In this document: one piece after another, positions 7,132 to 29,629 of the stretch
How the letters are laid out: the number at the start of each line of letters is the position of its first letter
How positions within the stretch are numbered: the first letter of the stretch is position 1
Virus record (IMG/VR): IMGVR_UViG_3300027704_002830
Location: 1 to 56,012 of that record
Source: a virus
Length of the DNA: 56,012 nt
Direction: 5' to 3' (one strand)
Notes under the pieces: generated by a model
Told to the model about the DNA's origin: nothing
The model's database searches: none
The model's input: only the letters and a program-made list of their open reading frames with translations
Program-made: the position numbers and the translations under genes

Positions 7132-8086
7132 TATATAACTCTTGGTTAGGTAGGCTTAATAACAATGGCGGAGTATTTAAACTTTTAATAAACTTTGTGT
7201 TATTCTTATCCCATAATATCATAGCATTATTAAAATCAGTAGAGTTAATTCCGAATTCCTTATTAACCCAATCGCCAGTGAAACATTCTTCAAATGTGAT
7301 GAATAGGATATTATAATTTCGATATCTAATATAATCTAAAAAACTACGATTCCACTCTAACAACCAAGAATCATCAGGTTGATCGAGTTGGCCGTAAATG
7401 TCTTCTTGCCAACCTGAATAAACTATCGAATTGATAACAGTTTGTGTTAATTCTTCTTTAGGTACTGATGCCATAATTGTTTTATTTAATGTGTGGCTTG
7501 CAGTTAGGTCTTCATGATGTTTTAACATACCTAATACTCTTATGTACTCTTGATATTTGCGACTATGTTGAAATATTATTTTAGAATATTTAAATAGATG
7601 ATGGTATCTGACACAGGTATGTGATCTAAATAACATTGGCAAGTCTTGCTGATCAAACTCATTAAGATCTTTTTTTGTTGGGGGCCGATGCTCTTCATCG
7701 CTTCCAACATTATCATATGTAAGTATGAACTCAGCAAGTTGTTTAAATGTTATGCTGTTTCTTTCTCTTCTGACACTCAAAAACTCATTTGGCATTTCGT
7801 TCATTTCAAGGAATAGCAACGGGGATTGAATAGATCTTGCAAGAGCAGAACCGTTATTATACTCACTTCTATTGATACCGTCTTCAACTGTATTGATATC
7901 GTCATCATCTAACGTTTTGTAAAATAAATTTGGTTGCTGTGACAAATAATTACAAATATGCTCGCCACCGCCACCTCCGTGATAAACTAGGAAAACAAAC
8001 TTATGTTGATTTTTTTCGATCCAAGTTGCTAGTTGATCTATAGTTAGATACGTATCTCCACCTGGTTGTTGGTCTATCTGAACCAT
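7118..8086 (-). CDS. Sulfotransferase-like P-loop protein, paralogue 1
   Basis: This 322-residue protein is a paralogue of the one at 11953-12837. Both begin with a hydrophobic strand followed by a glycine-rich loop (FVFLVYHGGGGGEHI here), which resembles the 5'-phosphosulfate-binding loop of PAPS-dependent sulfotransferases. Both have a KIIF strand in the middle. Both end with a similar C-terminal block (WVNKEFGI...FNNAMILWDKNNT here). This arrangement fits a sulfotransferase-like P-loop fold, but no catalytic residue can be confirmed and another nucleotide-binding role is possible. It lies between two radical SAM genes with overlaps of 14 bases and 1 base, which suggests that it acts on the same molecule. 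Confidence 0.45.
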   Translation of the reverse strand: MVQIDQQPGGDTYLTIDQLATWIEKNQHKFVFLVYHGGGGGEHICNYLSQQPNLFYKTLDDDDINTVEDGINRSEYNNGSALARSIQSPLLFLEMNEMPNEFLSVRRERNSITFKQLAEFILTYDNVGSDEEHRPPTKKDLNEFDQQDLPMLFRSHTCVRYHHLFKYSKIIFQHSRKYQEYIRVLGMLKHHEDLTASHTLNKTIMASVPKEELTQTVINSIVYSGWQEDIYGQLDQPDDSWLLEWNRSFLDYIRYRNYNILFITFEECFTGDWVNKEFGINSTDFNNAMILWDKNNTKFIKSLNTPPLLLSLPNQELYNDTN

Positions 8087-9585: not shown

Positions 9586-9899
9586 TACATTCTATCCATC
9601 GGGTCATAATCGTCCATTGGCATTGTATGATAAGGATCATTAAAGTTTGGATCGTCTTCTCCTACAACTTCGGTTACTTCGGGTATATAATGTTTTAGCA
9701 TGTTTTCAATACCCATTTTTAACGTTATCATACTGCTTGAACATCCAGAACAAGACCCACTTAATAACGTTTTAAGAATGCCAGTTTCCATATCAAAGTC
9801 TAATACTTTGACCTCGCCGCCGTGTTGGGCAACGTTTGGCTGTATCTTCTCGTCCATTATTTTGTTTATTTCTGTTAGTATTTCTTCTTTTGTTTTCAT
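9585..9899 (-). CDS. NifU C-terminal domain (Nfu-type) Fe-S scaffold/carrier
   Basis: The protein is a single Nfu domain of 104 residues. It carries the diagnostic SGSCSGCSSS motif (Cys50 and Cys53 with this start), then TLKMGIENML, as in NifU C-terminal domains. Nfu proteins bind a [4Fe-4S] cluster at the subunit interface through the CxxC and pass it to apo-enzymes. The frame extends upstream to a GTG at 9911. The ATG at 9899 is preferred because it makes an ATGA overlap with the stop of the upstream radical SAM gene. The acidic tail after the domain is ordinary for phage versions. Its place amid many [4Fe-4S] enzymes, each likely carrying two clusters, suggests that it supplies or repairs their clusters. 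Confidence 0.9.
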   Translation of the reverse strand: MKTKEEILTEINKIMDEKIQPNVAQHGGEVKVLDFDMETGILKTLLSGSCSGCSSSMITLKMGIENMLKHYIPEVTEVVGEDDPNFNDPYHTMPMDDYDPMDRM

Positions 9900-10906
9900 T
9901 TGTATATCCACGGTAAAGTTAATTTTGAATCTGTGCCCCTATGTTTATCGAGTGCTGTGAGCCAGTCTATTAAGTTGTCTTGTGGCTGCCCTACAGCGAG
10001 AATTGATGGTTCAGTAAGTGTATTAACATCTACGTCAGTTAATCCTTTTTCTGTACACCAATCTAATATTGTGTCAATATGTTCTTCATTTAGTTGCGAT
10101 TTTGTTACATTTACAGCAGTATGTATGTGCTTTTGCTGTAGTAATGTATTTAGATTATTCTCGAATGTCTCCCAATCTAACGGAAACCTAATATACTCGC
10201 CAACTTCGTTAATACCATCCACACTAATAGTTATCACTATTTTTTTGAAGTGTTCTAGCAACTGGAGTATAGTATTATCTAGCATTGTTAAGTTAGTAGT
10301 AATTTGTAAATCGATATGTTTACTATGCCCATTGTTAATTAATCCCTGTAATAAATGTTTTACAGATGGCATATAAAATGGTTCGCCACCTGCTAATTGC
10401 AATCGTTTGATTGATTTAGAATGATATAATATTTCATCAATTTGTTTAGTACTGAACTTAACAGTCTTCTCATACGGCTCTATGGCTAAATGGATATCTT
10501 CGATCCATTTACTACTAACACGTGGGTTACACATGACGCATTTTAAGTTACACACGTTACCAGGGCGTAAGTCATAGTACTGGGGCAAGGATGACATGTA
10601 CCCGTCACCACGTACTACGTAATCCCATTTGTCGAATTGTTTGTTTACTTTTATACGTTTACTATCGCGACCACAATCTTCATCAGCCCAGCACGTACTA
10701 CACGCATTTGGTCTTTGACTATATAACATTTGCCTTCTTATTTTTTTTAAGTAATACGAATTGAAACTTGTAACATCTTTATACTCTGGCCCTAACTCTG
10801 TTCGGTCTCCAATGCAACAGGGCAGTAGTTTATTATCAGTATCAACAAATTGTTGAATGAATGGCAGTATGCAAAAACTATTGGAACTGTGCTTTGAATG
10901 GATCAT
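9896..10906 (-). CDS. N-twitch radical SAM protein (336 aa)
   Basis: The shortest complete N-twitch member. Cys12, Cys30-Cys31 and Cys69-x2-Cys72 make the twitch-like set, and Cys119, Cys123, Cys126 form the core (CNLKCVMC). LAGGEP and SVDGINEVGEYIRFP follow. The frame reaches back to a GTG at 10930, but ATG 10906 is chosen because a strong GGGGAGGA Shine-Dalgarno lies just before it and the protein then begins like its relatives. The ribosome binding site lies inside the 3' end of the upstream SPASM radical SAM gene. The C-terminus (RGTDSKLTLPWIYK) resembles the tail motif of the longer paralogues. Confidence 0.92.
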   Translation of the reverse strand: MIHSKHSSNSFCILPFIQQFVDTDNKLLPCCIGDRTELGPEYKDVTSFNSYYLKKIRRQMLYSQRPNACSTCWADEDCGRDSKRIKVNKQFDKWDYVVRGDGYMSSLPQYYDLRPGNVCNLKCVMCNPRVSSKWIEDIHLAIEPYEKTVKFSTKQIDEILYHSKSIKRLQLAGGEPFYMPSVKHLLQGLINNGHSKHIDLQITTNLTMLDNTILQLLEHFKKIVITISVDGINEVGEYIRFPLDWETFENNLNTLLQQKHIHTAVNVTKSQLNEEHIDTILDWCTEKGLTDVDVNTLTEPSILAVGQPQDNLIDWLTALDKHRGTDSKLTLPWIYK

Positions 10907-11960
10907 ATTCCTCCCCGCATTTCTCAGCACAAACTTTTAGTCTACCTTGTTTAACACTAGGAGCAGACCAACTTTGTTCTATGCTTTGTAATAGACCGCC
11001 TCCGAACACTTTTCGAAGCCCGTGTTCCTTAGTATCAATTCCTTCTTTGCCGCCTGCGGCATTGATGTGATTCCAAACAGGTTCTACTGTAGGATCCTTG
11101 TGCCACCACTTGTACATTCTACTTGCTGTCCAGCAACACGGCATTAGTAATCCTTCAGCACTAATATAAATGTTTCCTTCTTTGGCAACCTTACATTTAA
11201 TATTACAAGTATCTAAATAGTTTTCCATGCTACCGTGCTTAGTAACAATTTTGTCAATTTGTTTTGTTGCTGTGTTTTGTAATTCTATATTCTTTGGCTT
11301 TTTTAAATTAGTTGTATCTTTTTCTTTACGGTTCTTTGCTTGGTGTTCATCTTTTTTATCTAACCAAGTAGTTACAAACCTTGCTGTTTTCTTTGCTTGA
11401 AATCGCTCAAAGCCGGCTTCTTCACTAACACGTTTAGCTTCTTCTACTTGATGTTCGTTATGTTCAAATATTAAAAAGTCCCAACGAGCTCTGCCACCTG
11501 CTCCTATGAATGCTTTGTATGAACGCTCAACTTTATCCCAACGTACATTTTGTCTGTACATATGATTAGTATCTTCTAGTCCGTCTAGACTAAAAATAAC
11601 AGTACCCATTCTACCAAATATTTCTGCTAGTTCTTGCCACCAGCTTTCCTCTTGGGCTCCAGCGTTTGTATTCATACTTAACCACAGGTTGGGATTAATA
11701 CTACGAAGCCACCTAAATGTTTCTAAGGTATCATTGGCCATAACAGGATCACCTAAGTTGCCGCACATATAAAAAGTTGTTAGTTGCTTAATAAACTCAA
11801 CGTCAAATATACGTTTAGCATCTGCTAATGTTAGTTCAGCATTTGTAATATGTGGACTGTCTTTACCACCGTTGACATTTCTATCGCACATAGGACAAGC
11901 CGCTTGACACCGCTGAGTTATCTCATAGTGTACCATCTTAATGTCTTGATATCTATACAT
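10878..11960 (-). CDS. Radical SAM protein with C-terminal SPASM-like domain
   Basis: This 360-residue protein has a different layout from the N-twitch set. The radical SAM motif is at the very N-terminus (CQAACPMC, Cys18, Cys22, Cys25). The extra cysteines are C-terminal: Cys252, Cys256, Cys275-Cys276, Cys344 and Cys348, typical of a SPASM-like domain holding auxiliary clusters. MCGNLGDP replaces GGEP. It is a clear paralogue of the plus-strand gene at 55301, sharing ISLDG-type and GGRARW...FEHN segments. SPASM enzymes often modify peptides or sugars, and which applies here is unknown. The overlap with 11953 is 8 bases. Confidence 0.9.
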   Translation of the reverse strand: MYRYQDIKMVHYEITQRCQAACPMCDRNVNGGKDSPHITNAELTLADAKRIFDVEFIKQLTTFYMCGNLGDPVMANDTLETFRWLRSINPNLWLSMNTNAGAQEESWWQELAEIFGRMGTVIFSLDGLEDTNHMYRQNVRWDKVERSYKAFIGAGGRARWDFLIFEHNEHQVEEAKRVSEEAGFERFQAKKTARFVTTWLDKKDEHQAKNRKEKDTTNLKKPKNIELQNTATKQIDKIVTKHGSMENYLDTCNIKCKVAKEGNIYISAEGLLMPCCWTASRMYKWWHKDPTVEPVWNHINAAGGKEGIDTKEHGLRKVFGGGLLQSIEQSWSAPSVKQGRLKVCAEKCGEEYDPFKAQFQ

Positions 11961-13057: not shown

Positions 13058-14409
13058 TTATATCCTATTACCATATGTCTATCATACTTTGTTAAGTTAA
13101 TACTATCAGCATACAGCACAGAAGTTAATTGACATTGCTCGAGTAATTCGTCTACAGTTGCGTGGCAATTAATATGCTCGTCTAATTCAGTGTAGTTGTT
13201 GCTTTGAAATATACATAATTGTCCTGGTTGAATTTTTCTAATGAACTCGTCAAAGTTTTCTAAGTGTTCTACGCTACTACAAATAATAGTATCGGGCTTA
13301 CACCAAAGTTTTTCTTGTGTTCCGTTTGCTCGTTTAGTTGTAAAGTCGTGCCCGGCAAAATTAATATTGTATATATCCTCAGTAGTTGCCTTAAACTTCC
13401 AGTTGTCTAACGTATAGTTTTTATTGATACGTTCTGCGATAGTCCAGCAACTGTCGTCTATGTCAAAGCTGAAAACTTGTTCTGCTTTACATCTCTGTAG
13501 TAAGAAGTATGCAGGCACACCGTACCAGCCGGCTAGTAAGAATACTTTACCTAAGTCAACCCCTGTGGCTTGTATTTTATCGATCATCCATAATTTGCTT
13601 TTTACTTGACCGATGCTTAACGCATCTTCGATATTATCTGCTTCGTCAACTGCCTTAACCATGTTAGTAATAAACGGATCTGCCCTGTTAATAACTGCTG
13701 AAAGCCGTGTAACTGATTTCCATTGTTGGTTCCTTACACTTTTAAGTAAGTCGCTTATTAGGGCACTTTCGATATCGATGCCCCACAAGTCACACATGGC
13801 AGGTATAATGTGCCAATATTGTTCTTTATCATTTGACAATACTACTTTTCTAAAGTTCTCATACTTAATCCAACTATCGCCATCTGTTCCTAATAGTCGT
13901 CCAAGTGTTTTAATAATTGAAGCAGGCTCCTGGGAGGTAACACTAATCTTAAGGTCCTCTAGTGGTATAATATCAACCTTATTGAGTTGTGGAGTATTAA
14001 GGGTTGATAAGAGTCTTAAAATGGCTGTTAGGTCGCCACCCAGGACTGCTGATCTCACATCTGTAATGTCGTAGTCGACCAACAGGTGAGAACTCGTTGT
14101 GATTAGCCCTGCTGGATCTTGTCCTAGCACAGCTGATCGAAAATTGTTTGCTCGTTCGGCATGTTCATCATTTACTGATAATAGTTCGGTCATTACTCTA
14201 ATAATACTGCTAGGGTCTTGACTTTTAATACACCGTTCAAAGTCTTCAAATAACTCGTTGTGTTCTACTCTGCCTAATAGTGCTGTCATATTAATTACAG
14301 CACTTGCATCTTTTGACAATGTAGCTCTACGAAATGTAGAGTTAAGTTCTTGATCTGGATATAAACGTTCTATCCTATCTAGAAATTGTATGGTGTTAAA
14401 GTCACTCAT
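13054..14409 (-). CDS. SAM-dependent methyltransferase with N-terminal helical repeats
   Basis: The 451-residue protein has two halves. Residues 1-210 contain about five degenerate repeats of 35-40 residues with a core like DPASIIxxxxxLL, probably helical. Residues about 270-451 look like a class I methyltransferase: LLAGWYGVPAYFL near 290 as the SAM-binding loop, FSFDIDDS near 314 with the ribose-binding acid, then a CSSVEHLENF segment. Methyltransferases with this opening occur in marine phages. The repeat half may bring the acceptor or a partner protein. It is a further SAM consumer in the metK operon. The acceptor is unknown. Confidence 0.68.
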   Translation of the reverse strand: MSDFNTIQFLDRIERLYPDQELNSTFRRATLSKDASAVINMTALLGRVEHNELFEDFERCIKSQDPSSIIRVMTELLSVNDEHAERANNFRSAVLGQDPAGLITTSSHLLVDYDITDVRSAVLGGDLTAILRLLSTLNTPQLNKVDIIPLEDLKISVTSQEPASIIKTLGRLLGTDGDSWIKYENFRKVVLSNDKEQYWHIIPAMCDLWGIDIESALISDLLKSVRNQQWKSVTRLSAVINRADPFITNMVKAVDEADNIEDALSIGQVKSKLWMIDKIQATGVDLGKVFLLAGWYGVPAYFLLQRCKAEQVFSFDIDDSCWTIAERINKNYTLDNWKFKATTEDIYNINFAGHDFTTKRANGTQEKLWCKPDTIICSSVEHLENFDEFIRKIQPGQLCIFQSNNYTELDEHINCHATVDELLEQCQLTSVLYADSINLTKYDRHMVIGYK

Positions 14410-14806
14410 ACCATTTATACCAATCTGGTTTTTGTGCTATTCGCTCTCTTATTCGTTCACGAATAAGTACTAAATCTTTATCTGTAGGTTGCCAATCATT
14501 ATACAATTCATCTGGCCACTGTTCTCTTTTAAACTTGCGGTCTATGTTAGGTTTCATTCCTCTACGTCTCATTTCTTTAACAAGTTCTATATATCTTTTG
14601 TGTAAATACTCGCCTTTGTTATAAAAGAATTTAACGTGTCCAGTATTAAGTGTAAAGTTGTCAGGTAATGTTTGTTTTGTTTTATTCCAGTTAGGAGATC
14701 TGAGTGAACGCTGTAATGACGAACCAACCATAAAGATTTCTCTGTATTCTGCTACCAAATGTTGATTGGATAATTCGTCTGGTTGTACTAAATTAATTCT
14801 AGTCAT
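14402..14806 (-). CDS. denV: Endonuclease V, pyrimidine dimer DNA glycosylase/AP lyase
   Basis: The protein has 134 residues, close to the 138 of T4 endonuclease V, and aligns with it end to end. The N-terminus MTRINL is identical, with Thr2 as the catalytic nucleophile after Met removal and Glu23 in AEYRE as the catalytic acid. The GHVKFFYNKGEYLHKR segment matches the T4 GHVTFFYDK region, and the C-terminal IAQKPDWYKWYE matches the T4 aromatic tail. The enzyme removes UV-induced cyclobutane dimers and nicks the DNA. It is a useful repair function for a virus in sunlit surface water. It overlaps the methyltransferase gene by 8 bases. Confidence 0.95.
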   Translation of the reverse strand: MTRINLVQPDELSNQHLVAEYREIFMVGSSLQRSLRSPNWNKTKQTLPDNFTLNTGHVKFFYNKGEYLHKRYIELVKEMRRRGMKPNIDRKFKREQWPDELYNDWQPTDKDLVLIRERIRERIAQKPDWYKWYE

Positions 14807-15481: not shown

Positions 15482-15745
15482 TTAGCCTTCTTCTTCCATC
15501 ATCTTTTCCCAAGCGATAGTCATACTGTTAAACATTAAATCATAATGAAACTTTGCTCTATCTTCTTCATTTAAGTCACCATCATAGTCGGCTTGTAGTT
15601 CATCAGCAAGAACTTCTGCAAAGTGTTCTATGTCTGCTTCATCTTCTATTGTTTCTATATGATGTCCATAATAGTTTTCTACTGTTTCGTAGTCTGACTC
15701 TAGTGCAATTGCAAAATGTTTTATTAGTGTATCTTCTTCTACCAT
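15482..15745 (-). CDS. Small acidic protein of unknown function (87 aa)
   Basis: An acidic 87-residue protein rich in Glu and Asp, with no recognised motif. The frame is open further upstream, but ATG 15745 is chosen because a GGGAGA Shine-Dalgarno lies 8-9 bases before it. The start also overlaps the TAG stop of metK in an ATGGTAG junction typical of translational coupling. The small acidic character recalls phage inhibitors or DNA mimics, but nothing specific supports that. Its tight link to metK suggests co-expression with SAM synthesis. Confidence 0.55.
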   Translation of the reverse strand: MVEEDTLIKHFAIALESDYETVENYYGHHIETIEDEADIEHFAEVLADELQADYDGDLNEEDRAKFHYDLMFNSMTIAWEKMMEEEG

Positions 15746-16830
15746 CCAATCTTCTCCCATGGTACATCTTTGTCGCCAAAGTGTCCGTATACACAATTCT
15801 CACTATATCCATAAAAGTTAAATAAATCAAACCTATCAATAATACCTTTTGGTGTAAGGTCAATATTTTCTCTAATATACTTTTGAATACTTTTATTATG
15901 TCCGTTGCTGTCAATGTAAATGCTTGTTGGTTCTTTTACACCGATAGCATATGATAGTTGTATTTGGCACCAGTCAGCCATATCGTCTGCTACAACATTC
16001 TTTGCTAACCAACGTGCCATATATGTAGCACTACGATCTACTTTCGTAGGGTCCTTTCCAGAAAAAGCACCACCACCATGAGGAGCGAAACCACCATAGG
16101 TGTCCACGATAATTTTTCGTCCTGTAACTCCGGTGTCTCCATCAGGTCCGCCAATAACAAAATTGCCAGTAGGATTAATATGCCATGTAGTGTTTTCATC
16201 AATTAAATCTCCCAGTACTTCACGTGCCGCATCCTTGATGGGCATTCTTATACTATCACCGAACCCTTTTTTGTGCTGATGAGATACTACAATTTGGTCA
16301 ACACGCTTTGGTACTCCGCCGCTGTATTCTATGCTTACTTGACTTTTAGCATCTGGTAGCATATAGTCGTAACCTGACTTACGCTTCTCATTGAGATTTT
16401 TTAATATCTCGTGACTGTAATAAATCGGAGCAGGTAAGAAAGACCCGTTATCGAGACAGGCATAACCAAACATAAGACCTTGATCGCCGGCACCAAACTC
16501 ATCTGTGCCTAATCCAATGTCGCCACTTTGGCTATGTATAAGATTATTAATTTTTAGATTTTCGTAATGGAACCCGTCTTGTTTGTATCCAATCTCTTTA
16601 ACTTTGTCACGAATAAGTTGTTCTATTTCGTCGGGTGTTACATTAAAGTTTTTTACTTCGCCTGCAATTGTAACATGATTAGTAGTTACAAGTGTTTCAA
16701 CCGCAACACGAGTAGTTTCGTCTCCTGCTTTTAGACCAGCATCTACTAACGTATCACTGATTTGATCTGCTACTTTATCTGGATGACCAGCACTTACTGA
16801 CTCACTTGTAAAAGTGTAATTATTTTCCAT
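15739..16830 (-). CDS. metK: S-adenosylmethionine synthetase
   Basis: The enzyme makes SAM from ATP and methionine. Family signatures are all present: SAGHPDK at 13-19, GAGDQG at 113-118, the GGPDGDTGVTGRKI stretch from about 228, and GGGAFSGKD at 252-260 followed by TKVDRS. At 363 residues it is slightly short of the usual 380-400, but no core motif is missing. It is the first gene of the leftward operon and has a strong AAGGAG ribosome binding site 8 bases before the ATG. Ten or more downstream genes encode SAM-using enzymes, so its job is probably to raise SAM supply for them. A virus copy may also escape host feedback on the cellular enzyme. Confidence 0.97.
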   Translation of the reverse strand: MENNYTFTSESVSAGHPDKVADQISDTLVDAGLKAGDETTRVAVETLVTTNHVTIAGEVKNFNVTPDEIEQLIRDKVKEIGYKQDGFHYENLKINNLIHSQSGDIGLGTDEFGAGDQGLMFGYACLDNGSFLPAPIYYSHEILKNLNEKRKSGYDYMLPDAKSQVSIEYSGGVPKRVDQIVVSHQHKKGFGDSIRMPIKDAAREVLGDLIDENTTWHINPTGNFVIGGPDGDTGVTGRKIIVDTYGGFAPHGGGAFSGKDPTKVDRSATYMARWLAKNVVADDMADWCQIQLSYAIGVKEPTSIYIDSNGHNKSIQKYIRENIDLTPKGIIDRFDLFNFYGYSENCVYGHFGDKDVPWEKIGW

Positions 16831-16968: not shown

Positions 16969-18468
16969 AACTTTATATTCTGTTTCAAACCTATCAGCAT
17001 CTTCGCGGGTGTCAACCATTGGCTCGCCCCTGATATTGAGGCTTGTATTAAGTAGCATAGGACAACCGGTTAGTGTAAACCACTTTTCTAATAGTTGTCT
17101 CACACCACTTTCGCTGTTTTCTGGAACAGTTTGTACCCTACTAGTACCGTCTACGTGTACAATAGCAGGAAATTCTTCTGGCTTTTTACAGTTAGCAACG
17201 ACTTGCATGTATGGTGATGTTGGTAAGTTTTTTGGCATTTCAAAATATTGATCTACAAATTCTTCCATAATTATTGGAGCAAATGGTCTAAATTTTTGCC
17301 TACGTTTAATATCATTTACTTGATCTTTAATGTCTTCACCCCGAGGGTCTGCTAATAAACTTCTATTACCTAATGCTCTAGGTCCAAACTCTGCTCTGCC
17401 ACTTGCTACACCTACTATTTTATTTGTGCTCAATTCGTTTAGTAAGTCGTCGACTGGATAGTCACCTTCAATGTTTGTACCTAAGTAAGGATGAGACCAG
17501 CGTACATGTTTGCCGTATACTTTTGCCGCGGCACCTAAACTACTACCACAGTCTCCTGGGTTGGGCATTATCCAAACATTATCCCACCACTTGCCTAAGT
17601 TTCTATTATATAAACAGTTAAGGGCAACACCACCCTGATATACCAGGTTATTACTTTTGCCTAACTTTTTAGCACGAGCCATTACTTCGTCAATTAATTT
17701 TTCAACAACTGCTTGGGTACTTGCGGCAATATCCATTTCGTCTATATCTTTTAAGAATTCTTCGTCAACACCGGTGTGTAAGTTCTGTGTAAATTTTACA
17801 TCACCTATATCTTTAATAAGACTATTTTTAATAGTGTGTTCAACATCTGTGGCATTTTTGCCATGGCCTGCCATTCCCATCAAAATATATTCTTCGTCTT
17901 GTGGGCGTAGCCCGAGTCGTCCTGTCATTGCTGAATAATATAATCCTATAGAGTGAGGGTACTTTTGACTCCATAATTTTTTATAATCTACTTCACCATA
18001 CCTTCCCATCATAGGAAATTTATTATATGTTGCTGACCAAATAGAAATAGTATCCCATTCTCCGATAGCATCTATTACTACAACTGTAGCATCCTGGAAG
18101 GGAGATGTTTGAAACCCAGAAGCAACATGTGACATATGATGATTGAGTGTGTGAACCTTTTTAGGTAACATATCATAATATGATCCAAAGTGCTTTTTTA
18201 AAGTTTGTTTAATTGTCCATGTTGACCCTTTTTTATATCCCTGTCCGGCATATATTTCTCTTGTCTTTTTCTTCCATGGTGTTTCGTAATATGCTACACA
18301 ATCAAATGGACCATGCTTAAATGCTTCTTCGATTATTTCTGGACATAAATTTTTATCGTGTTTCTTTTTACTAAAGCGTTCACTGTGTCCAGCAAATAAA
18401 ATTTTATCGTTGTGTAATACAGTTAGGCCAGCATCGTGAAATCCTGCACTCACACCTAGTATCTTCAT
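16954..18468 (-). CDS. Carbamoyltransferase, NodU/TobZ family
   Basis: This 504-residue protein has the two-domain NodU/TobZ layout. The N-terminal ASKHA-type domain begins MKILGVSAGFHDAG and holds the metal and carbamoyl-adenylate residues His110, His111 and His114 in NHHMSHVASGF. The C-terminal YrdC-like domain has the strongly conserved GRAEFGPRALGNRS. Members transfer a carbamoyl group from carbamoyl phosphate, by way of an adenylate, to a sugar or similar hydroxyl group (Nod factor, tobramycin). In this operon of sugar-modifying enzymes it probably carbamoylates a glycan or sugar nucleotide. Its stop codon overlaps the metK promoter region. It overlaps the upstream radical SAM gene by 4 bases. 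Confidence 0.92.
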   Translation of the reverse strand: MKILGVSAGFHDAGLTVLHNDKILFAGHSERFSKKKHDKNLCPEIIEEAFKHGPFDCVAYYETPWKKKTREIYAGQGYKKGSTWTIKQTLKKHFGSYYDMLPKKVHTLNHHMSHVASGFQTSPFQDATVVVIDAIGEWDTISIWSATYNKFPMMGRYGEVDYKKLWSQKYPHSIGLYYSAMTGRLGLRPQDEEYILMGMAGHGKNATDVEHTIKNSLIKDIGDVKFTQNLHTGVDEEFLKDIDEMDIAASTQAVVEKLIDEVMARAKKLGKSNNLVYQGGVALNCLYNRNLGKWWDNVWIMPNPGDCGSSLGAAAKVYGKHVRWSHPYLGTNIEGDYPVDDLLNELSTNKIVGVASGRAEFGPRALGNRSLLADPRGEDIKDQVNDIKRRQKFRPFAPIIMEEFVDQYFEMPKNLPTSPYMQVVANCKKPEEFPAIVHVDGTSRVQTVPENSESGVRQLLEKWFTLTGCPMLLNTSLNIRGEPMVDTREDADRFETEYKVRVCS

Positions 18469-19655
18469 AGGTATTCTCCAAATCTCTTGTCTAAATCTAG
18501 TAGGTTAGTAGACCGTTGTTTATCCATAGCTTTAGTAAGTAATGTTAATGATTGGCCTTTTGCGGCAATTGGTGCCTGACGTGTGAGTATACAATTAGTA
18601 CATTGTTGAATAAATTTTATTGTGTGGTTGTTGCGAGCTGTTTGTTCAATTGTATTTAGTTCTTCGACTAACTGAGTTCGATGTTCGTCAGTTAAGTTCC
18701 CGATATCAAATCCCGTAGGCCATTCTAACGGTATAGCAAAGCTAGGTTGATTCCAATTTTCATATGTATCATACATTGTATCTAACCATTTAGCATACTC
18801 TCCTATGCCAAACACATTATACATCTGAAGTACGAAATTTGCCCCCATGCCAGCGGCGTGTGGTGCTAGTCTACCTATGTTCTTAGTTAACTTATTCCAA
18901 TTACCGTATGTTCGTATATACTCGTAATTAGATCCATAACCGTCAATACTAAATCGTAAGTTTGTATTAAAGTGAGCAATCCTTTCTAGGAAACTTTTTC
19001 TAGCGTTAGTGCCATTTGTTGTTATACTAATATGTACTTCTGGTCCTTTATCCAACTCGATCATTCTATCCATTAACGCTAAACAGTTTTCATCTAGAGT
19101 TGGCTCACCTCCTAACATGCGAATATTAGTAATGCCTATTAAGTATTCTTTTGGCGGCACAGCAAACGTGGGAGGTTCTAATCCATCTGCTATATCTCGT
19201 TCACCGTATAGTTCAACTAGTGTTTGACTCTCTCCAGCGTGTTCTGCAATTAAACTCGAGTCAACCGGTGTACACATTCTACACATGAGGTTACATTTAT
19301 TATTTGGTCTTACATCTAGTTGTAGTACAGGAGGTTTGTCACCAAATTGTTCTAGTACTTGTTCTTCGCTTTCTAATTTAAAAGTTTGTACAGCAACTTG
19401 CCTATGGCTTTGTTTTTGATTGCTCTCATCTCTTTCGCATTTGCGGCAAGCAGTAGGCCATTCATCATCTCTAAAGTTTTGCTTTAGGTTTTCCCAATAA
19501 GGTTCTGTAAATCTTCCATCCATGGCTTCTTGTAAACTATTAGCTGTTATAGATTCTACAGCATCACAGCATACTTTTATTCTATGACCCTTAGGATGAT
19601 TCCTACCTCTATAGTATAAGTTCATATAAGGATATGGACAAAATAATTTACTCAT
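18465..19655 (-). CDS. N-twitch radical SAM protein (396 aa)
   Basis: Cys6, Cys29-Cys30 and Cys70-x2-Cys73 form the twitch-like set, and the core CNLMCRMC has Cys121, Cys125 and Cys128. LGGEPTLDENC and SIDGYGSNYEYIR follow. The frame opens upstream at a TTG (19688), but ATG 19655 is preceded by a good AAGGAG site and gives the family N-terminus. It lies in the operon upstream of the metK promoter, directly before the carbamoyltransferase and after another radical SAM gene. These three genes may act in sequence on one sugar-like substrate. Confidence 0.92.
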   Translation of the reverse strand: MSKLFCPYPYMNLYYRGRNHPKGHRIKVCCDAVESITANSLQEAMDGRFTEPYWENLKQNFRDDEWPTACRKCERDESNQKQSHRQVAVQTFKLESEEQVLEQFGDKPPVLQLDVRPNNKCNLMCRMCTPVDSSLIAEHAGESQTLVELYGERDIADGLEPPTFAVPPKEYLIGITNIRMLGGEPTLDENCLALMDRMIELDKGPEVHISITTNGTNARKSFLERIAHFNTNLRFSIDGYGSNYEYIRTYGNWNKLTKNIGRLAPHAAGMGANFVLQMYNVFGIGEYAKWLDTMYDTYENWNQPSFAIPLEWPTGFDIGNLTDEHRTQLVEELNTIEQTARNNHTIKFIQQCTNCILTRQAPIAAKGQSLTLLTKAMDKQRSTNLLDLDKRFGEYL

Positions 19656-20970
19656 AGTACTCCTTGAACTCTGGGAAGGTTTTAACAAAGTCTGTTCCTC
19701 TCCGTTTGTCTAGTTCGTGTACATATGATTTTAAATCTTCTCGTTGTTTAGTAAAATCGTTCTGTTGCTGATGCTTCCAGTACTTGTATATACGTTCCAT
19801 CTTAGCAGTCTCATCTTCGTCGAACCATTTAGATTTAGCCATGTACTTCCAGCTTTTCTCTATAAGGTCACCCTCTTTCATAATTTTACAGTCTAAAAAT
19901 TCAGGATGTCTAACATAAGGAATATCTACGTAGACTGATTCTTTACCGTACCGCTCTCTTATAAGTTCAATGTCTTTCATGAACATTGTAAAACTGCTAA
20001 TACTTAATGCATTATAGGCACACATGAAAGTGATCGGAACTTCTGGTAAAGTTTCGATACATTGTGCTACACGTCTAATAAATTCATCGTAGTTCATACC
20101 AAATCTAATGTAATCGTTTTTATCGTCCCATGCTTCTGCTGATGTGTATATTTCTAACTTGCGAAGTTTATTACTATCTAATATTTCTCGGGATTGTTTT
20201 AAAAACTTATTAAATAGTTTATCAGGTACGCCAAAATTAGCATTAATACCTAACAGTAAATTAGTATTTGGTTCTTCTGCTTCTTGAATATAATCTAATA
20301 CTTTAAAAGTATTCTTGTTCATTAACGGCTCACCACCTGTTATTCTAAACGTGTGTAAGCTCTGATACAGTCTAGGCCACCATTTCCAAAATGCTTCTTG
20401 GTAAGGATTGTGTTCACGTTCTGGTATAGGCATTTGGCCTGCATGTTCTAGCCATTCTAAGTTGTTATACTTGTTGCTTGTTGGATACGGTCCATGCTGT
20501 TTAATTTCTTCCATCCATTTAGAACTAATATGTGGAGCACAATAGATACACTTAAAGTTACAAGCATTACCAAAACTTACTTCAACGTATGTAGGATCAA
20601 AGTCTTCGTCGCCTTCCATTGCTGCAATTTTATTAAAGTGCGGTTCACTCCAACTAAAGCTACTTTTATAATGCCTATCGCTTAACATCTCAGGAGCCGC
20701 ATCTTCTACTCTCCAACAGTAATCGCATTCTTTAGGACGCACACCGTTAAGCATTTCCTTGCGGCGTTCTTTTTTAAACTTTGTATTATGTAAAGCACTA
20801 GGGTTTACTTCTAGTTCCTCTAGAGGAATTTTATGTGTACTCGGATGATGACAACTCTGTGTATGACCGTTTTGTAAATGTAAAGTTACTTGGGTCCATT
20901 TGGCAAGGCACAGGCTTGGACTTTTCTCGTCTAACCTCTTTTGCATTTCGCGCCAGTTTTTATTCGCCAC
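19648..20970 (-). CDS. N-twitch radical SAM protein with variant twitch ligands
   Basis: The core CNFKCIYC has Cys137, Cys141 and Cys144, and ITGGEPLMNKN is present. In the twitch-like region Cys21 and Cys82-x2-Cys85 are kept, but the usual Cys-Cys pair is Cys40-His41-His42, so one auxiliary cluster ligand may be histidine or absent. The start is GTG 20970, supported by AAGGA about 9 bases upstream. The protein has 440 residues, and its tail (RGTDFVKTFPEFKEYYE) matches the RGTDFxxTFPE tail of other long members. It overlaps the HAD phosphomannomutase-like gene by 11 bases. Confidence 0.9.
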   Translation of the reverse strand: MANKNWREMQKRLDEKSPSLCLAKWTQVTLHLQNGHTQSCHHPSTHKIPLEELEVNPSALHNTKFKKERRKEMLNGVRPKECDYCWRVEDAAPEMLSDRHYKSSFSWSEPHFNKIAAMEGDEDFDPTYVEVSFGNACNFKCIYCAPHISSKWMEEIKQHGPYPTSNKYNNLEWLEHAGQMPIPEREHNPYQEAFWKWWPRLYQSLHTFRITGGEPLMNKNTFKVLDYIQEAEEPNTNLLLGINANFGVPDKLFNKFLKQSREILDSNKLRKLEIYTSAEAWDDKNDYIRFGMNYDEFIRRVAQCIETLPEVPITFMCAYNALSISSFTMFMKDIELIRERYGKESVYVDIPYVRHPEFLDCKIMKEGDLIEKSWKYMAKSKWFDEDETAKMERIYKYWKHQQQNDFTKQREDLKSYVHELDKRRGTDFVKTFPEFKEYYE

Positions 20971-21664
20971 TATATAGATCCTTTAATAATTGGAATGTTT
21001 CGTCGGGACCAGTTACATGATAAAACTTATCGTATAACCTTAACATTTCTACTAACGGATAGTCATTGCCTGTAGTCTCACATCGATCACCAAAAAATAC
21101 TAAAGGCGTTCCTATAGTATTATAAACTTGTGATTTATTTCTACCCTTCATGAATATATCTAAACTAGTGTTTCCGCCAATTGATGCCTCAAAGCCTGGA
21201 AACTTTTTATTAAACCTTTGTGATATGTCTAATCGTTCACCGTGTTCGTTATCCCACTCAAAGTAAACATCTCTGGCTTCTTCGGGCATATCTCGTCCAG
21301 CTATACAAAAGTTAATTACGCCTACACGTTTTTCAATATGATTACCATATCTATGTGGGTAAGCACTTTTTTCTAATTCGTTTTCTAACCATCCTATCAT
21401 ATCTTCTGGTGGTGTAAAGTTTGTTTGTGCTATAGGAATACCATATCGCCATACATCATTGCCAGCACACTGGAAAGCCATGCTACAATTATCTACAATC
21501 TCTGGTCCTATTTGTTCTATTGTTTTTGGTCTGTCACTGCCTGTTACGAGGTAAACAGTTTTATCTTTCATCCAATCAATAAACCAAGACTTAAAGTCGG
21601 GGTCCATTAGTTGTCTAGCATGAGTTAATGTTCCGTCTACGTCGAAAACAAAATTCTTTTCCAT
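20960..21664 (-). CDS. HAD-family protein resembling eukaryotic-type phosphomannomutase
   Basis: This 234-residue protein has the HAD motif FDVDGTLT with Asp8 (nucleophile) and Asp10, then TGSDRPKTIEQIG. An ...RVGVINFCIAGR segment (113-124) corresponds to the RNGMLN..PIGR substrate region of eukaryotic-type phosphomannomutase. SLDIFMKG (167-174) corresponds to SxDVFPxG, and FFGDRCETTGNDYPLVE (190-206) to the FGDKT..GGNDYEI motif. The full order matches the PMM family (about 245 residues), which interconverts mannose 6- and 1-phosphate, the step before GDP-mannose. It could instead be a sugar phosphatase of the same subfamily. It sits between radical SAM and APT genes. Confidence 0.75.
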   Translation of the reverse strand: MEKNFVFDVDGTLTHARQLMDPDFKSWFIDWMKDKTVYLVTGSDRPKTIEQIGPEIVDNCSMAFQCAGNDVWRYGIPIAQTNFTPPEDMIGWLENELEKSAYPHRYGNHIEKRVGVINFCIAGRDMPEEARDVYFEWDNEHGERLDISQRFNKKFPGFEASIGGNTSLDIFMKGRNKSQVYNTIGTPLVFFGDRCETTGNDYPLVEMLRLYDKFYHVTGPDETFQLLKDLYSGE

Positions 21665-21665
21665 A

Positions 21666-22220
21666 TTATGATCCTAAATATTCTACTGCCTTGATGACAG
21701 GGACACCTGCTTGTAGTACCCTGGCCTCTCCGCCTACCTCAGGCAAGTTAACCACACAACCAAATGCTAATACATTAGCTCGCCATTCACGTTGTATGAT
21801 ATTAATAACAGCTAACGCAGTACCGCCTGTTGCTAGTAAGTCGTCTATTATAATAACATTCTCTCCGTCGTGGATAGAATCAGATTGTATTTCCAATGTT
21901 GCTGAACCGTATTCTAATTTAAATTCTTGTCCGTGTACAGCACCTGGAAGTTTGCCCTTTTTTCTAGCTAGTACTAATGGCACATTAAATCTATGTGCTA
22001 ACACACCGCCGAATATAAATCCCCTAGCATCAACGGCCACAATACGATCAACCTTATGTTTGTATTTTAGCATACGATCATACATAAAGTTTTGTGCTAA
22101 TCTCAAACCAGGCCCATTACATAAACTAGAAGTATCTTTAAAGTCTACTCCCTTGACTGGCCAATCAGGATATGTTTTAATATAATCCTTAATTAGTTTT
22201 CTGTTTTTGCCATCAGCCAT
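21666..22220 (-). CDS. apt: Adenine phosphoribosyltransferase
   Basis: The enzyme joins adenine and PRPP to give AMP and pyrophosphate. At 184 residues it has normal length and all main motifs: ARGFIFG near 65-71, the RKKGKLPG hood-like loop near 86-93, EYGSATLEIQ near 103-112 and the PRPP loop VIIIDDLLATGGTA (122-135). Its start overlaps the stop of the RuBisCO-like gene (AATGGCTGA), with an AGGAAAG ribosome binding site. APT is the standard route to recover adenine released when 5'-deoxyadenosine or methylthioadenosine is hydrolysed. Both are by-products of SAM metabolism, which gives it a plausible reason to be here. Confidence 0.95.
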   Translation of the reverse strand: MADGKNRKLIKDYIKTYPDWPVKGVDFKDTSSLCNGPGLRLAQNFMYDRMLKYKHKVDRIVAVDARGFIFGGVLAHRFNVPLVLARKKGKLPGAVHGQEFKLEYGSATLEIQSDSIHDGENVIIIDDLLATGGTALAVINIIQREWRANVLAFGCVVNLPEVGGEARVLQAGVPVIKAVEYLGS

Positions 22221-23340
22221 TGTCGATAGCTTTCCTTAGTTCCTCTACACCTGCCCTAATACCTTTAGGGTGTGTGTGGATTGCGCCGCCTACATTTGCC
22301 ATCCAGTCGTTGCCGAATTTTTCTCTAATAACAGGAATTAAATCCTTTGTCATGCCGCAACTAAATGCCGGAGTAAGATTTTGTTCTAAACAAACATTTT
22401 GAATATTTTTAAGTTCTTCATACCCCATGTCCATATAGCCGCCGTACATACCAGCGTGAATTGTATCACATCCTATGAGGCCTGCTAACTTACACATAAC
22501 TGCCCATTCAATTCTGTAGGCATTGTACTTGCTTGTAAGAACTTTATCGCCACTCTTTTGAAAGTGTATGAATGTTCCATTGTCTTCGTCTCTAATAGCC
22601 TTGTAAGCACCCATGCCACTCCAGAAGTTAATATGTACTCCCATACCTCCCCATCCACTAACAGTTCTTGCTTTGTCCATTAATGTGTGCGGATCTGAAT
22701 TAATACAATAACAATAAACAGTTTTAGATCCATCAATGATAGGCTGTACTATGCCGATCCTTTCTTCAAGGGTTAAACAAGCAGGGTTGCTCATAATCTC
22801 ATCTTCTTTAATAAAATCAGTGCCGCCATCTACCATTTGTTGTACAATATCTTTTAATGTAGCAGGAGAAAGTCCTGTTTTTGGTTTAACAATAGTACCT
22901 AATAACGGTTTATCATATTGTTGAACGTGATCTCTAAAGCCAGTGAGACCGTATGCTGGCGCTGATAAATCTGCTTTGACTCTATCAATATTAATATCAG
23001 TCCAATGACATTGCTGTATAATGTCAATGTCCATTTGCCCTCCCATCACAGTACACATTAGTTGAGCTATGCCATCTGCATACCAATCAATGTTTCTATA
23101 AGGCCAGGCAATTTCGACTACACCTGCTTGAACAACTGCTAAGTCATCTGGGTCAGCTATAATCTTAGCACTATGATTTTCCATCATTTCCGTTGTTTCA
23201 TATTTACTTCGCACAGACGGGTTACCGATACTTTGTCCTATTGCTAATCCTTCGGCCGCTTCTTTTAGTGTTGTTTTACTTTGTAAAAAGAAGTGACAGC
23301 TAAAGTGATCTTCGGGTTTATTTGCTCTATATATTTCCAT
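22213..23340 (-). CDS. RuBisCO-like protein (form IV-type, large-subunit family)
   Basis: This 375-residue protein of the RuBisCO large-subunit superfamily has the phosphate/metal barrel motifs. GTIVKPKTGLSP has Lys152 and Lys154 (RuBisCO Lys175, Lys177). FIKEDE has Lys178, Asp180 and Glu181 (the carbamylated Lys201, Asp203, Glu204). It also has TIHAG (His295 for His327), FSCGM (Ser327 for Ser379) and VGGAIHTHPKG. The loop-6 lysine (Lys334) is replaced, with GGYMDM there, and the His294-Arg295 pair reads Gln-Lys. It is therefore probably not a CO2-fixing RuBisCO but an enolase/isomerase-type RLP acting on a ribulose-phosphate analogue, as in methylthioadenosine salvage. It is coupled to apt. 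The specific substrate is unknown. Confidence 0.88.
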   Translation of the reverse strand: MEIYRANKPEDHFSCHFFLQSKTTLKEAAEGLAIGQSIGNPSVRSKYETTEMMENHSAKIIADPDDLAVVQAGVVEIAWPYRNIDWYADGIAQLMCTVMGGQMDIDIIQQCHWTDINIDRVKADLSAPAYGLTGFRDHVQQYDKPLLGTIVKPKTGLSPATLKDIVQQMVDGGTDFIKEDEIMSNPACLTLEERIGIVQPIIDGSKTVYCYCINSDPHTLMDKARTVSGWGGMGVHINFWSGMGAYKAIRDEDNGTFIHFQKSGDKVLTSKYNAYRIEWAVMCKLAGLIGCDTIHAGMYGGYMDMGYEELKNIQNVCLEQNLTPAFSCGMTKDLIPVIREKFGNDWMANVGGAIHTHPKGIRAGVEELRKAIDNG

Positions 23341-23358
23341 AATGTTATTATACCTTCT

Positions 23359-23688
23359 TTAGTTCTGAATGTCAAATGAATATTTGTCATCTGTGTTACA
23401 AATATCCTTTACTACTATTACTTTAATGTCTGTTAAAAATTCTACAATGCTTACTTCATAAGGTTCAATAACAAAAATATCATTTGCTTTCAAGTGTTTG
23501 CCGTTACAAATCATTTCGCCTTCTATAATAAATGTTACTTCTCGTTGTTCCTTATGAAAATGATCTTGGTGGAACTCACCTTTAGTGTGTGTATGATATG
23601 CTACTTCAAAGTTGGCGGGCATTGCCGTTGTTGGAAAGTCCCCAACAAACCAACCTTTGAACATATCTTTAAAGTCAAATGTTTTCAT
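23359..23688 (-). CDS. Cupin-domain protein
   Basis: A small single-domain cupin of 109 residues. The first cupin motif is seen as HTHTKGEFHQDHFHKEQRE with several histidines and a Glu that can bind a metal, then FIIEGEM, and the second motif region is EFLTDIKVIVVKD. ATG 23688 is chosen because AGGAAA precedes it and the upstream extension overlaps the nucleotidyltransferase gene. Small cupins next to sugar nucleotidyltransferases are often sugar epimerases or isomerases. The position in this operon suggests processing of a phosphosugar or nucleotide sugar, but that is inference. Confidence 0.75.
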   Translation of the reverse strand: MKTFDFKDMFKGWFVGDFPTTAMPANFEVAYHTHTKGEFHQDHFHKEQREVTFIIEGEMICNGKHLKANDIFVIEPYEVSIVEFLTDIKVIVVKDICNTDDKYSFDIQN

Positions 23689-23689
23689 G

Positions 23690-24421
23690 TTATTTCCTGT
23701 AATGCCTATGTGTATAATGTTGCCAATCGTGTTGTACACCTACAGGCCAAAATGTATTCGCATGTACTCGATCAACTCGGACATCATGTCCTTCTGTAAT
23801 TAGTTCGTTATAAACCGCCGCAACATAATATTCTCCATATTCTGGTGGCTTACTTAATAATGTGTTAACACTATCGTTAAATACTTCACCGTTATGGAAA
23901 TGATAAAATCCAGTGGTAGCATTGTTCGTAGGAAGTCCTGCTGTTGTTTTTTCCGTACATAGATGAACCTTATCAGTATCACCTTCGGTATGAGCAAAAC
24001 TATGTCGTTCGGTATCTGTGTGATTATAAATTGCTATGTAACTAGACTCGGGGTTATTAGTTATTTTCTTTTGTAGGCTAGTAGTATCCCATTCAAACAC
24101 TTGATCGCAATTAACACTAATAAAAGGGTTGCTACTAGTCATTACTTCGCTACATTTTTGTAATGTTTCAGCCGCTCCTTGTGTTGTTTCCTCTATTGCT
24201 GTAATACTACCCATACTTTCTAACAATGGTTTCATAAAAGGATGATCTTTAAGATGTTGCATTTTTACAACAAAATGCCAATCAGCGTCAGGCCACTCTA
24301 AACTGTAATACACATTTTGTATCATAGTCGTGTTGCCAGTTCTAATTAAAGGCTTTGGGTAAAGATGTCCTTGTTCCTGGAAACGTGATCCAAGCCCTGC
24401 CATTGCTACTACTATATTCAT
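23690..24421 (-). CDS. Sugar-phosphate nucleotidyltransferase-like protein
   Basis: The N-terminus MNIVVAMAGLGSRF, followed by PKPLI at 22-26, is the nucleotide-binding signature of sugar nucleotidyltransferases. Asp in NCDQVFEWD fits the metal site. At 243 residues it is the size of a bare catalytic domain without the left-handed helix extension. Such enzymes activate sugar 1-phosphates as NDP-sugars. With the phosphomannomutase-like protein and the glycosyltransferases upstream, it could supply an activated sugar donor. The nucleotide and sugar cannot be told from sequence alone. Confidence 0.8.
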   Translation of the reverse strand: MNIVVAMAGLGSRFQEQGHLYPKPLIRTGNTTMIQNVYYSLEWPDADWHFVVKMQHLKDHPFMKPLLESMGSITAIEETTQGAAETLQKCSEVMTSSNPFISVNCDQVFEWDTTSLQKKITNNPESSYIAIYNHTDTERHSFAHTEGDTDKVHLCTEKTTAGLPTNNATTGFYHFHNGEVFNDSVNTLLSKPPEYGEYYVAAVYNELITEGHDVRVDRVHANTFWPVGVQHDWQHYTHRHYRK

Positions 24422-28372: not shown

Positions 28373-29192
28373 GGGAACCTCCGCTGTAATGGTTTTCTTC
28401 TCGTTTTAATTTTATAGGCATGTATGTTTGCTTAGGTTTAATATGGTTTGCTTTTATATGAAATGATAAAACGTGTTCAGGCCCGTATGCTTCTTGCCTG
28501 CCCAAATCAAACCATTCTCGTTTATACTTTGGAATACAACTATAAAAATCACAAATACGATCATAATCAAAACTAGGAGCTGACCAGTAAACATCACTAC
28601 ATCTGTATCTATGAAAATCGTCAAACGTTTGATGTATTACATTAACGTTGCCTAATGCTATTGGTGACAACCTATATTCTTCTTCAACAATCTTGCCTAA
28701 TGCTATTGGCTGAAAGCGTTCTCCTTCAGCCGTGATGTCTAATGCTGGCGGTGACATCTTATATTCTTCTTCAACATAGTTGTCAAATCTCATTCTAACA
28801 CACAAATCATATTCCATAGCAAACTCGCGTTCGTACTGTTGCTTTAAATGGCAAGCCATCATTACACCATAAAACTGGCTATGATAATTAGGGTCAAATA
28901 CTGCCCATTCGTGTTGATCCTTACCTCTGTTAACAAAGTCAATGGGATCTTCAACTAATATTTTTTTAGGTTTTAATAATCTCTTAACTATATTAAGTTC
29001 TGTATTACTGTGAACTTTTTCTTCGTTATCGTTATTAGCGTGTGCTACTTTATTTGGCGCTGTAGAGTTAGTCCACGTATGTACAAAATAGTCTACTTCG
29101 TCGGTGAGTGGGTCAAACATTTTCTCCCAACTAGGAATACATTCTTCGTATCTTCCTCTTAACTGGCCACTGACACAAACTGCTATTTTCAT
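28359..29192 (-). CDS. Glycosyltransferase-like protein with SGQLR motif, copy 2
   Basis: This 277-residue paralogue of 27650-28372 starts with IAVCVSGQLRGRYE and carries the matching YDLCVRMRFDNY strand. It contains an unusual internal repeat: VEEEYKMSPPALD and, about 30 residues later, VEEEYRLSPIALG, with PIALG present twice. The repeat is also plain in the DNA around 28650-28790. It inserts about 40 residues relative to the neighbour. It overlaps the GDPD-like gene by 4 bases. The function is probably transfer of a sugar to a glycan or lipid, inferred from the family only. Confidence 0.5.
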   Translation of the reverse strand: MKIAVCVSGQLRGRYEECIPSWEKMFDPLTDEVDYFVHTWTNSTAPNKVAHANNDNEEKVHSNTELNIVKRLLKPKKILVEDPIDFVNRGKDQHEWAVFDPNYHSQFYGVMMACHLKQQYEREFAMEYDLCVRMRFDNYVEEEYKMSPPALDITAEGERFQPIALGKIVEEEYRLSPIALGNVNVIHQTFDDFHRYRCSDVYWSAPSFDYDRICDFYSCIPKYKREWFDLGRQEAYGPEHVLSFHIKANHIKPKQTYMPIKLKREENHYSGGSHEIT

Positions 29193-29629
29193 TCTATAAC
29201 TCCGATGTAATCACTACAAATACCGTAGCAATCTTTATATATTTTTAATTCTTCTGCTGTAGGTCTTTCCATATGACAAACAACTGACTTAGGACCATAC
29301 TTGTTATAATCTGAATGTGTCCAAATATAACCATGGTTTGTTAATGTAACATCGTCTCCTTGGTGCCAAAAACAATTAATGCCTTCGTTGGTCATATACT
29401 CTAGTGCTTGTATGTCTTTAGCGTGGCACCATAACCCCTTCATTTTTAGCATATTCTTGTTAACTGATGCTATAGGGCTATCGTGTCCTAGTTGAACCAT
29501 ACCGTTGCTATACCACACATCTATTTCAACATCATATCCTTCTGCTAGTGCTTCAAAAATATAATGTGGGCTGTTTTCCCTTTTAGGATTTGGCCCAAAT
29601 AAATTACCTCTATGACTTATCTTTCTCAT
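29189..29629 (-). CDS. Glycerophosphodiester phosphodiesterase-like protein, short
   Basis: The N-terminal half matches the GDPD fold: ISHRGN (His6, Arg7) followed by ENSP, the metal-binding pair in EGYDVEIDVW (Glu35, Asp37) and QLGHDSP with His49. At 146 residues it is well under the usual 240-300, and the later barrel strands are reduced. It may be a minimal phage version or may act on a small phosphodiester such as glycerophosphoryl groups on a glycan. It overlaps both neighbours by 4 bases in ATGA-type junctions. Confidence 0.7.
   Translation of the reverse strand: MRKISHRGNLFGPNPKRENSPHYIFEALAEGYDVEIDVWYSNGMVQLGHDSPIASVNKNMLKMKGLWCHAKDIQALEYMTNEGINCFWHQGDDVTLTNHGYIWTHSDYNKYGPKSVVCHMERPTAEELKIYKDCYGICSDYIGVIE

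Follow-up and report, generated by a model that had tools for sequence, protein, structure and literature searches.

A RuBisCO-like protein clade of phages and cells with a probable role in nucleotide-sugar biosynthesis

Genes in the window

The window, which here means the whole 56,012-nucleotide stretch of viral DNA analysed (IMG/VR record IMGVR_UViG_3300027704_002830), carried genes for a RuBisCO-like protein (RLP) and an adenine phosphoribosyltransferase (APT), and both ORFs were present where the original prediction had placed them. These two genes and the others discussed below were as follows.

29189-29629, minus strand: mini-GDPD-like protein, 146 aa, 5.8 kb upstream of the RLP gene
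23690-24421, minus strand: sugar-phosphate nucleotidyltransferase (NTase), 243 aa; match to Arch_glmU (E = 3.3e-13) below the cut-off
23359-23739, minus strand: small cupin; GTG start at 23739, relatives beginning at the equivalent of Met18, about 23688
22213-23340, minus strand: RLP, 375 aa, ATG start; RuBisCO-fold protein
21666-22220, minus strand: APT, 184 aa, ATG start; overlaps the RLP gene by 8 nt
20960-21664, minus strand: phosphomannomutase (PMM)-like HAD-IIB protein, 234 aa; PF03332, E = 9.2e-23

On the minus strand the order was NTase (24421-23690), cupin (23739-23359), RLP (23340-22213), APT (22220-21666) and HAD (21664-20960), followed downstream by two twitch-type radical SAM ORFs and then a carbamoyltransferase. 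The 8-nt overlap of RLP and APT was ATGGCTGA, with the APT start just ahead of the RLP stop. The pair had been described as fused by overlap and translationally coupled; the reading frames do overlap, no fused protein was found, and coupling itself is only plausible. The APT scored above the cut-offs of NF002634 (172.8 of 170 bits) and NF002636 (166.7 of 125 bits) and below that of TIGR01090 (152.6 of 185.85 bits), and by curated profile the gene is assigned as an adenine phosphoribosyltransferase.

The window contained matches to baseplate wedge and virion structural proteins. The 122-kb contig L001, from what is practically the same virus (99.97% identical to the window over 21,125 bases), carried Gp23 (E = 1.7e-99) and a terminase, neither of which is in the window itself. 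These matches agreed with the earlier assignment of the virus as T4-like. The segment 38346-51335 of the window encoded a 4,329-aa virion structural protein (phrog_10938) adjoining a 1,175-aa baseplate wedge protein, and a pyrimidine dimer DNA glycosylase (PF03013) was located at 14402-14806. Nine radical SAM ORFs (1832-11960 and 18465-20970), a heavy load for a phage, were present together with a NifU-like gene (9585-9911); two of the nine were twitch-type and three were under the Pfam cut-off. An S-adenosylmethionine synthetase with all three domains was encoded at 15739-16830 of this phage contig.

Fold and family of the RLP

In the Pfam profile search, PF00016 matched the RLP with 109.9 bits (E = 1.9e-31; cut-off 30.1). 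Six RuBisCO, MtnW and OiaX models of NCBIfam also matched, every one far under its own cut-off; the two curated MtnW scores were 100.9 of 513.6 bits and 122.1 of 409 bits. At E 0.001, PHROGs had no family for the RLP. The AlphaFold model, built with a 26-sequence alignment (pLDDT 92.3, pTM 0.90), aligned with RuBisCO along its whole length, and the closest solved structures were those of Pyrococcus horikoshii RuBisCO (TMq 0.89 for 2d69; Z 41.7 over 367 residues for 2cwx). The RLP is a member of the RuBisCO superfamily by fold and profile. Judged by its residues, it is form IV in the broad sense, a RuBisCO homologue without carboxylase residues.

Active site

The RLP residues were mapped onto 2cwx, and positions are given in spinach RuBisCO numbering. 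In the window RLP, K175 (K152), K177 (K154), K201 (K178), D203 (D180), E204 (E181), S379 (S327) and G381/G403/G404 were kept, and H294 (Q261), R295 (K262) and the loop-6 K334 (Y302) were altered. This mapping confirmed the original description of a RuBisCO-family protein that keeps Lys175, Lys177, Lys201, Asp203 and Glu204 and has lost the loop-6 lysine and the His294-Arg295 pair. Residues K152, K154, K178, D180, E181, Q261 and Y302 were identical in all 81 sequences compared (the window and 80 viral relatives, see below).

The residue table was made from an alignment of 69 proteins, with 48 clade members (26 viral and 22 cellular); L204 and L205 are absent from it. All 48 members kept the equivalents of the base K175, of the metal-site residues K201, D203 and E204, and of K177, S379, G381 and G403, and 46 kept G404. 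The substitutions T65 to N, W66 to P, H294 to Q, K334 to Y and G380 to C were likewise found in 48 of 48, and R295 was changed in 47 (K in 43, S in 4, R retained in 1). None of the 19 references matched this signature. Ten RLP references (2oek, four alphaproteobacterial Ykr-like, two IV-Photo and three 3nwr-like sequences, under group names that are in part our own assignment) were opposite to the clade at two sites, K177 being lost and H294 kept in all ten.

Conservation of this kind argues that the enzyme is functional, although some search words of the IMG/VR and GTDB searches fell on active-site motifs, which favours sequences having them. The clade site fits one in which Mg2+ binding and enolisation would still be possible and the residues predicted to hold the CO2 adduct are gone, and this would suit an isomerase, epimerase or enolase. 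The RLP should not carboxylate, because its loop-6 lysine is a tyrosine and its His294 a glutamine.

Distribution and phylogeny

A scan of IMG/VR with the 26-sequence profile showed that 353 stretches encode RLP relatives, in which one virus may count repeatedly. The scan with the single RLP gave 167 stretches, and the best 80 of these (44-100% identity), among them L001, were combined with the window into a set of 81 loci; a degenerate DNA pattern scan of IMG/VR (at least 120 stretches) was set aside. The RLP found nothing by tblastn in 50,697 phage records (E 1e-5), and the best 50 rows of the viral fold library had TMq of at most 0.42 with no RuBisCO fold among them. A RuBisCO-family gene in a T4-like phage had been called unusual; this held for the latter two collections and did not hold against the 353 IMG/VR stretches and the viral rbcL annotations in print. 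Whole-record searches covered 22 RLP-carrying viral records, namely the window and 21 of the 80 contigs, most of these being long. T4-type Gp23 was found in 12 of the 22 and Terminase_6N in 10, with at least one of the two in 13 and neither in nine.

In the GTDB collection, 262 pattern matches yielded 23 loci with cellular relatives. They included SAR11, three Legionella species, Azospirillum, Elusimicrobia, Verrucomicrobiia, Patescibacteria and DPANN archaea. The SAR11 contigs were up to 232 kb long and contained housekeeping genes; some of the cellular loci, e.g., L098, may come from phage contigs that were binned into a cellular genome. Of 115 genomes sampled from the class of Azospirillum, 14 had a match at E 1e-10, and a clade-type RLP was present only in the Azospirillum genome; the best loci of the other 13 (L193-L205) fell outside the clade in the tree.

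The phylogenetic tree (LG+C20, 69 rows) included 26 viral and 22 cellular clade sequences, without the truncated L104 and without L185-L189, L191, L192 and L206-L208, which repeat genes already included. The 48 clade members grouped together (100/100, branch 1.07), separate from the references included for forms I-III and RLPs; the form I/II labels of some references are our own, given by similarity. The neighbours of the clade were 2oek and four alphaproteobacterial references, and the clade stood beside them, not inside. This side of the tree was split (97/97) from forms I, II, III, IV-Photo and the 3nwr group, with placement being unsure for the long branches L098, L099 and 2oek. Viral and cellular members interleaved, and 7 label changes were needed, 4 of them forced by well-supported branches, which argues that RLP genes moved between phages and cells. 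The RLP clade is real, widespread and well conserved.

The original prediction of a form IV-type protein was borne out by the tree, which places the RLP outside the carboxylating forms, and by T65, W66, H294, R295 and K334, which the RLP has not retained. A nucleotide-pentose route of the form III type, in which APT working backwards or PRPP chemistry would yield RuBP for carboxylation by the RLP, is extremely improbable. It would account for the best structural matches being P. horikoshii form III and for the kept K175, K177, K201, D203 and E204, and a soil virus rbcL1 co-expressed with rbcS is reported as active (PMC12615777). It was rejected on the clade-wide residue changes described above, on the position of the clade outside forms I-III, and on PF01008, a family that includes R15P isomerase and was found in 0 of the 22 RLP-carrying records.

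Conserved gene neighbourhood

Gene families were defined by BLAST clustering that took no account of the RLP, and were then counted by profile on six-frame ORFs. By profiles that, for NTase, cupin, GDPD and HAD, were made from the same loci they count, the 81 loci contained NTase in 79, mini-GDPD in 69, cupin in 63, HAD in 10 and APT in 4. The two loci without an NTase match were L069 and the 12-kb L007. The cupin was within 150 nt of the RLP gene in 52 of the 81 loci, and in 70 an NTase lay no more than 1.5 kb away on the same strand. The partners stood amid glycan genes, and other neighbours of the RLP included NAD-dependent epimerases, UDP-GlcNAc 2-epimerase and FkbM-type methyltransferases.

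Gene order was compared with shuffled order in 26 representatives (greedy cut at 72% identity), counting genes at most two genes from the RLP. NTase was near the RLP in 20 of the 26 representatives holding it (expected 5.4, p 4e-10), cupin in 18 of 20 holders (expected 3.3, p 9e-13) and GDPD in 16 of 23 (expected 4.6, p 1e-7); for HAD the count was 2 of 3 (p 0.06). Two comparison families gave no signal (C5, 1 of 13, expected 2.95; C7, 2 of 4, expected 1.1) and one was marginal (C3, 6 of 15, expected 2.9, p 0.05). The C6 methyltransferase was near the RLP as tightly as the core partners (9 of 9 holders, expected 1.9, p 3e-7), which speaks against a sugar-activation reading. The reverse search from the cupin gave 79 new loci (the best 80 of at least 566, one being already in the set), with RLP in 62 and NTase in 78.

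The NTase and cupin pairing, far above shuffled order, bears on a further alternative, in which the RLP would be a catabolic decarboxylase or isomerase whose substrate is a beta-keto acid sugar phosphate, comparable to OiaX in the breakdown of D-apionate, and the glycan genes would be chance company. The NCBIfam OiaX model matched the RLP at E = 2.4e-30, and the family profile had the RLP structure 3nwr among its best solved matches; however, the OiaX score was 105.7 bits against a cut-off of 700, and the 3nwr group, which retains H294 and K334, is placed across the tree from the clade. Together with the pairing, this makes the alternative very unlikely.

In the 23 cellular loci, NTase was found in 21, mini-GDPD in 13 strongly and 2 weakly, and cupin in 7. 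NTase and mini-GDPD occurred in viral and cellular loci, and the cupin mostly in viruses. The loci missing NTase were contigs of 3.1 and 3.7 kb, and the NTase of L099 was a partial match adjoining masked sequence. All four genes were present in five cellular loci (L082, L083, L087, L097 and L102), with the NTase of L082 on the opposite strand. In three Legionella species the RLP adjoined NTase, and cupin and mini-GDPD were both absent. Six SAR11 loci (L089, L090 and L092-L095) had the RLP between two NTases, the upstream one lacking, by eye, the GxGxRF start motif; cupin was found in none of the six. The low cupin count in cells, the gaps in the Legionella and SAR11 loci and the strand of the L082 NTase weigh against a sugar-activation reading. 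The Elusimicrobia (L097) and Azospirillum (L102) loci had another order, GDPD-RLP-cupin-NTase, and this speaks against one phage cluster having simply been copied.

Partner proteins

The NTase reached no curated cut-off. The best match of its family profile was 4evw, named nucleoside-diphosphate-sugar pyrophosphorylase (E = 4.7e-36), followed by mannose-1-phosphate guanylyltransferases and 6-deoxy-mannoheptose pathway proteins. Five NTases of other loci (L015 8547-9650, L067 5982-7037, L072 13896-14924, L114 480-1580 and L116 6317-7438) had an extra C-terminal domain beginning IFCDLDGTI or similar, by eye a HAD phosphatase.

The window cupin had no Pfam match of its own, and its nearest solved relatives were small cupin_2 proteins, one of them labelled mannose-6-phosphate isomerase (E = 8.5e-5). 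By eye, the cupin alignment had two conserved His and one Glu, and its second motif was without a conserved His. The cupin profile gave 20 PDB matches up to E 10, and their example chains did not include 3jzv, the R. rubrum cupin structure.

In the mini-GDPD, HRG, EN, ExD and GH were invariant in 20 of 20 rows; its sequence match to GDPD was weak (E 2.5e-4), and Foldseek gave no match below E 0.001. The model of the L085 homologue (8730-9155, 142 aa, pLDDT 96.5) resembled a half-size GDPD, and VIA-align 2 placed a GDPD first (Z 10.2), GDPDs making up most top rows. The relatives of the L085 protein in the window and in L049 had no Pfam match. Taken together, NTase, cupin and mini-GDPD suggest that a phosphorylated sugar or polyol would be reshaped before being activated.

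The salvage proposal

The original prediction had treated RLP and APT as a pair recycling MTA or 5'-deoxyadenosine. This pairing did not hold across the loci, as APT was present in 4 of 81 (searched with the window APT only, and two of the four being the same virus) and the constant partners were sugar-activation genes; on this count, RLP-APT as a functional unit was rejected. The salvage families PF01008 (MtnA-type isomerase), PF01048 (nucleosidase/phosphorylase) and PF00596 (class II aldolase) had no match in the window or its 122-kb twin; a host could supply such steps. Among the 22 RLP-carrying viral records, which are fragments, the three families were found in 0, 2 and 1, respectively, and most records lacked those for steps preceding the RLP (PF01008 and PF01048). 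The RLP, HAD and cupin were also considered in analogy to methionine salvage, as counterparts of MtnW, MtnX and MtnD; the analogy was rejected, the HAD being of PMM type, the second cupin motif being without a conserved His, and an NTase being present.

MTA or 5'-deoxyadenosine salvage is an alternative with a precedent. The RLP would isomerise 5-deoxyribulose-1P or MTRu-1P to a xylulose-5P, APT would rescue adenine, and the cupin would take the part it has in R. rubrum, in which a cupin sulfurylase acts after the Deep-Ykr RLP (PMC4958253). In the best case the RLP would give 1-deoxyxylulose-5P directly, by extension of the R. rubrum route; published 5-deoxyribose salvage consists of kinase, isomerase and aldolase (PMC6079011). 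The nine radical SAM ORFs and the SAM synthetase of the window could make 5'-deoxyadenosine, the 97/97 split of the tree leaves the viral clade with MtnW, and APT overlaps the RLP gene. The rarity of APT and of the three salvage families weighs against this explanation, as does the most constant partner, a nucleotidyltransferase, which has no place in the route, and we regard it as unlikely. As a general function of the RLP, salvage is unlikely; as a route of the window lineage it is possible. In the window the mini-GDPD is non-adjacent, APT and HAD are adjacent and there are nine radical SAM ORFs, so this lineage could have changed function.

Proposed function

We favour a role of the non-carboxylating RLP clade in nucleotide-sugar biosynthesis, where it would probably act as a Mg/carbamyl-lysine enolising isomerase supplying an activated-sugar precursor. 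An enolising mechanism class is fairly likely, and the nucleotide-sugar assignment is suggested by gene neighbourhood, i.e., guilt by association. Mg2+ would be held by carbamylated K178 with D180 and E181, assisted by K152 and K154. The RLP would take a proton beside the keto group of a phosphorylated keto-sugar, and the resulting enediolate would be re-protonated elsewhere, as in an isomerase, epimerase or enolase. The product would pass, perhaps via the cupin, to the nucleotidyltransferase, and glycosyltransferases would then attach the sugar to a surface glycan of the phage or its host. The APT and radical SAM genes would be local additions in the lineage of the window.

A more specific version, which we consider quite unlikely, is that the RLP would be a mutase without phosphate transfer (ketose 1-phosphate to and from ketose 5- or 6-phosphate), walking the keto group along the sugar phosphate and replacing the PMM-like HAD, to give an unusual nucleotide-activated ketose for the surface glycans of phage and host. 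If the RLP moves a keto group in the R. rubrum manner, presumably by stepwise enolisation, it could stand in for such a HAD. In the 79 cupin loci, by a HAD profile partly made from these loci, RLP was present in 62 (HAD in none of these), HAD in 12 (RLP in none) and neither in 5. Of the 17 cupin loci without RLP, 12 had the HAD, directly behind the cupin in 11; three had another order and two ended at the cupin. Against this version, RLP and HAD occurred together in 10 of the 81 RLP loci, the window included.

The known roles of RLPs, to our knowledge, lie in sulfur salvage and sugar-acid breakdown. If the nucleotide-sugar assignment is true, the much-studied RuBisCO fold would have a further, new role in sugar activation, across phages, bacteria and archaea, and the short partner list makes the function testable in vitro. 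Among the papers listed in the open-access literature searched, no description was found of a link between an RLP and a nucleotidyltransferase, phage nucleotide sugars, polysaccharide or phage auxiliary metabolism, and the available parts of PMC9875498, PMC11421388 and PMC5575542 held nothing on viral RLPs.

Comparison with known systems

The MtnW/YkrW RLP (DK-MTP-1P enolase; 2oek, 2zvi) shares with the phage protein the RuBisCO fold and the metal-site triad, and 2oek is among the nearest tree references. However, it has 26% identity to the window RLP and other gene partners, and 2oek has lost K177 and kept H294, the reverse of the phage clade. The archaeal form III RuBisCO (2cwx, 8dht) gave the best structural match (2cwx/2d69) at 26-27% identity and differs in T65, W66, H294, R295 and K334, all changed in the clade.

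The R. rubrum Deep-Ykr RLP, a MTRu-1P isomerase, is likewise an RLP with a cupin, in that case a cupin sulfurylase, and converts MTRu-1P to MTXu-5P (PMC4958253). It was compared by description, and differs in that the constant partners of the phage clade are a nucleotidyltransferase and the mini-GDPD.

Ocean RuBisCO homologues outside the known forms, with the group label 'IV-GOS', were also compared by description only. The 2007 GOS paper describes 65 of them clustering with no known RuBisCO form (PMC1821046).

RuBisCO-family rbcL or RbcL-like genes on viral contigs have been reported as carbon-fixation genes (PMC12607003, PMC12615777, PMC8506154 and PMC13390420), and in one of these sources landfill viral RbcL clusters with 'RbcL-like' proteins. 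They resemble the present RLP in being RuBisCO family members on viral contigs; the comparison was by description only, and the descriptions available give no NTase or cupin link. Pipelines that label such genes 'rbcL' may count this clade, which bears on claims of viral carbon fixation, and the changes H294 to Q and K334 to Y provide a signature by which the clade can be distinguished.
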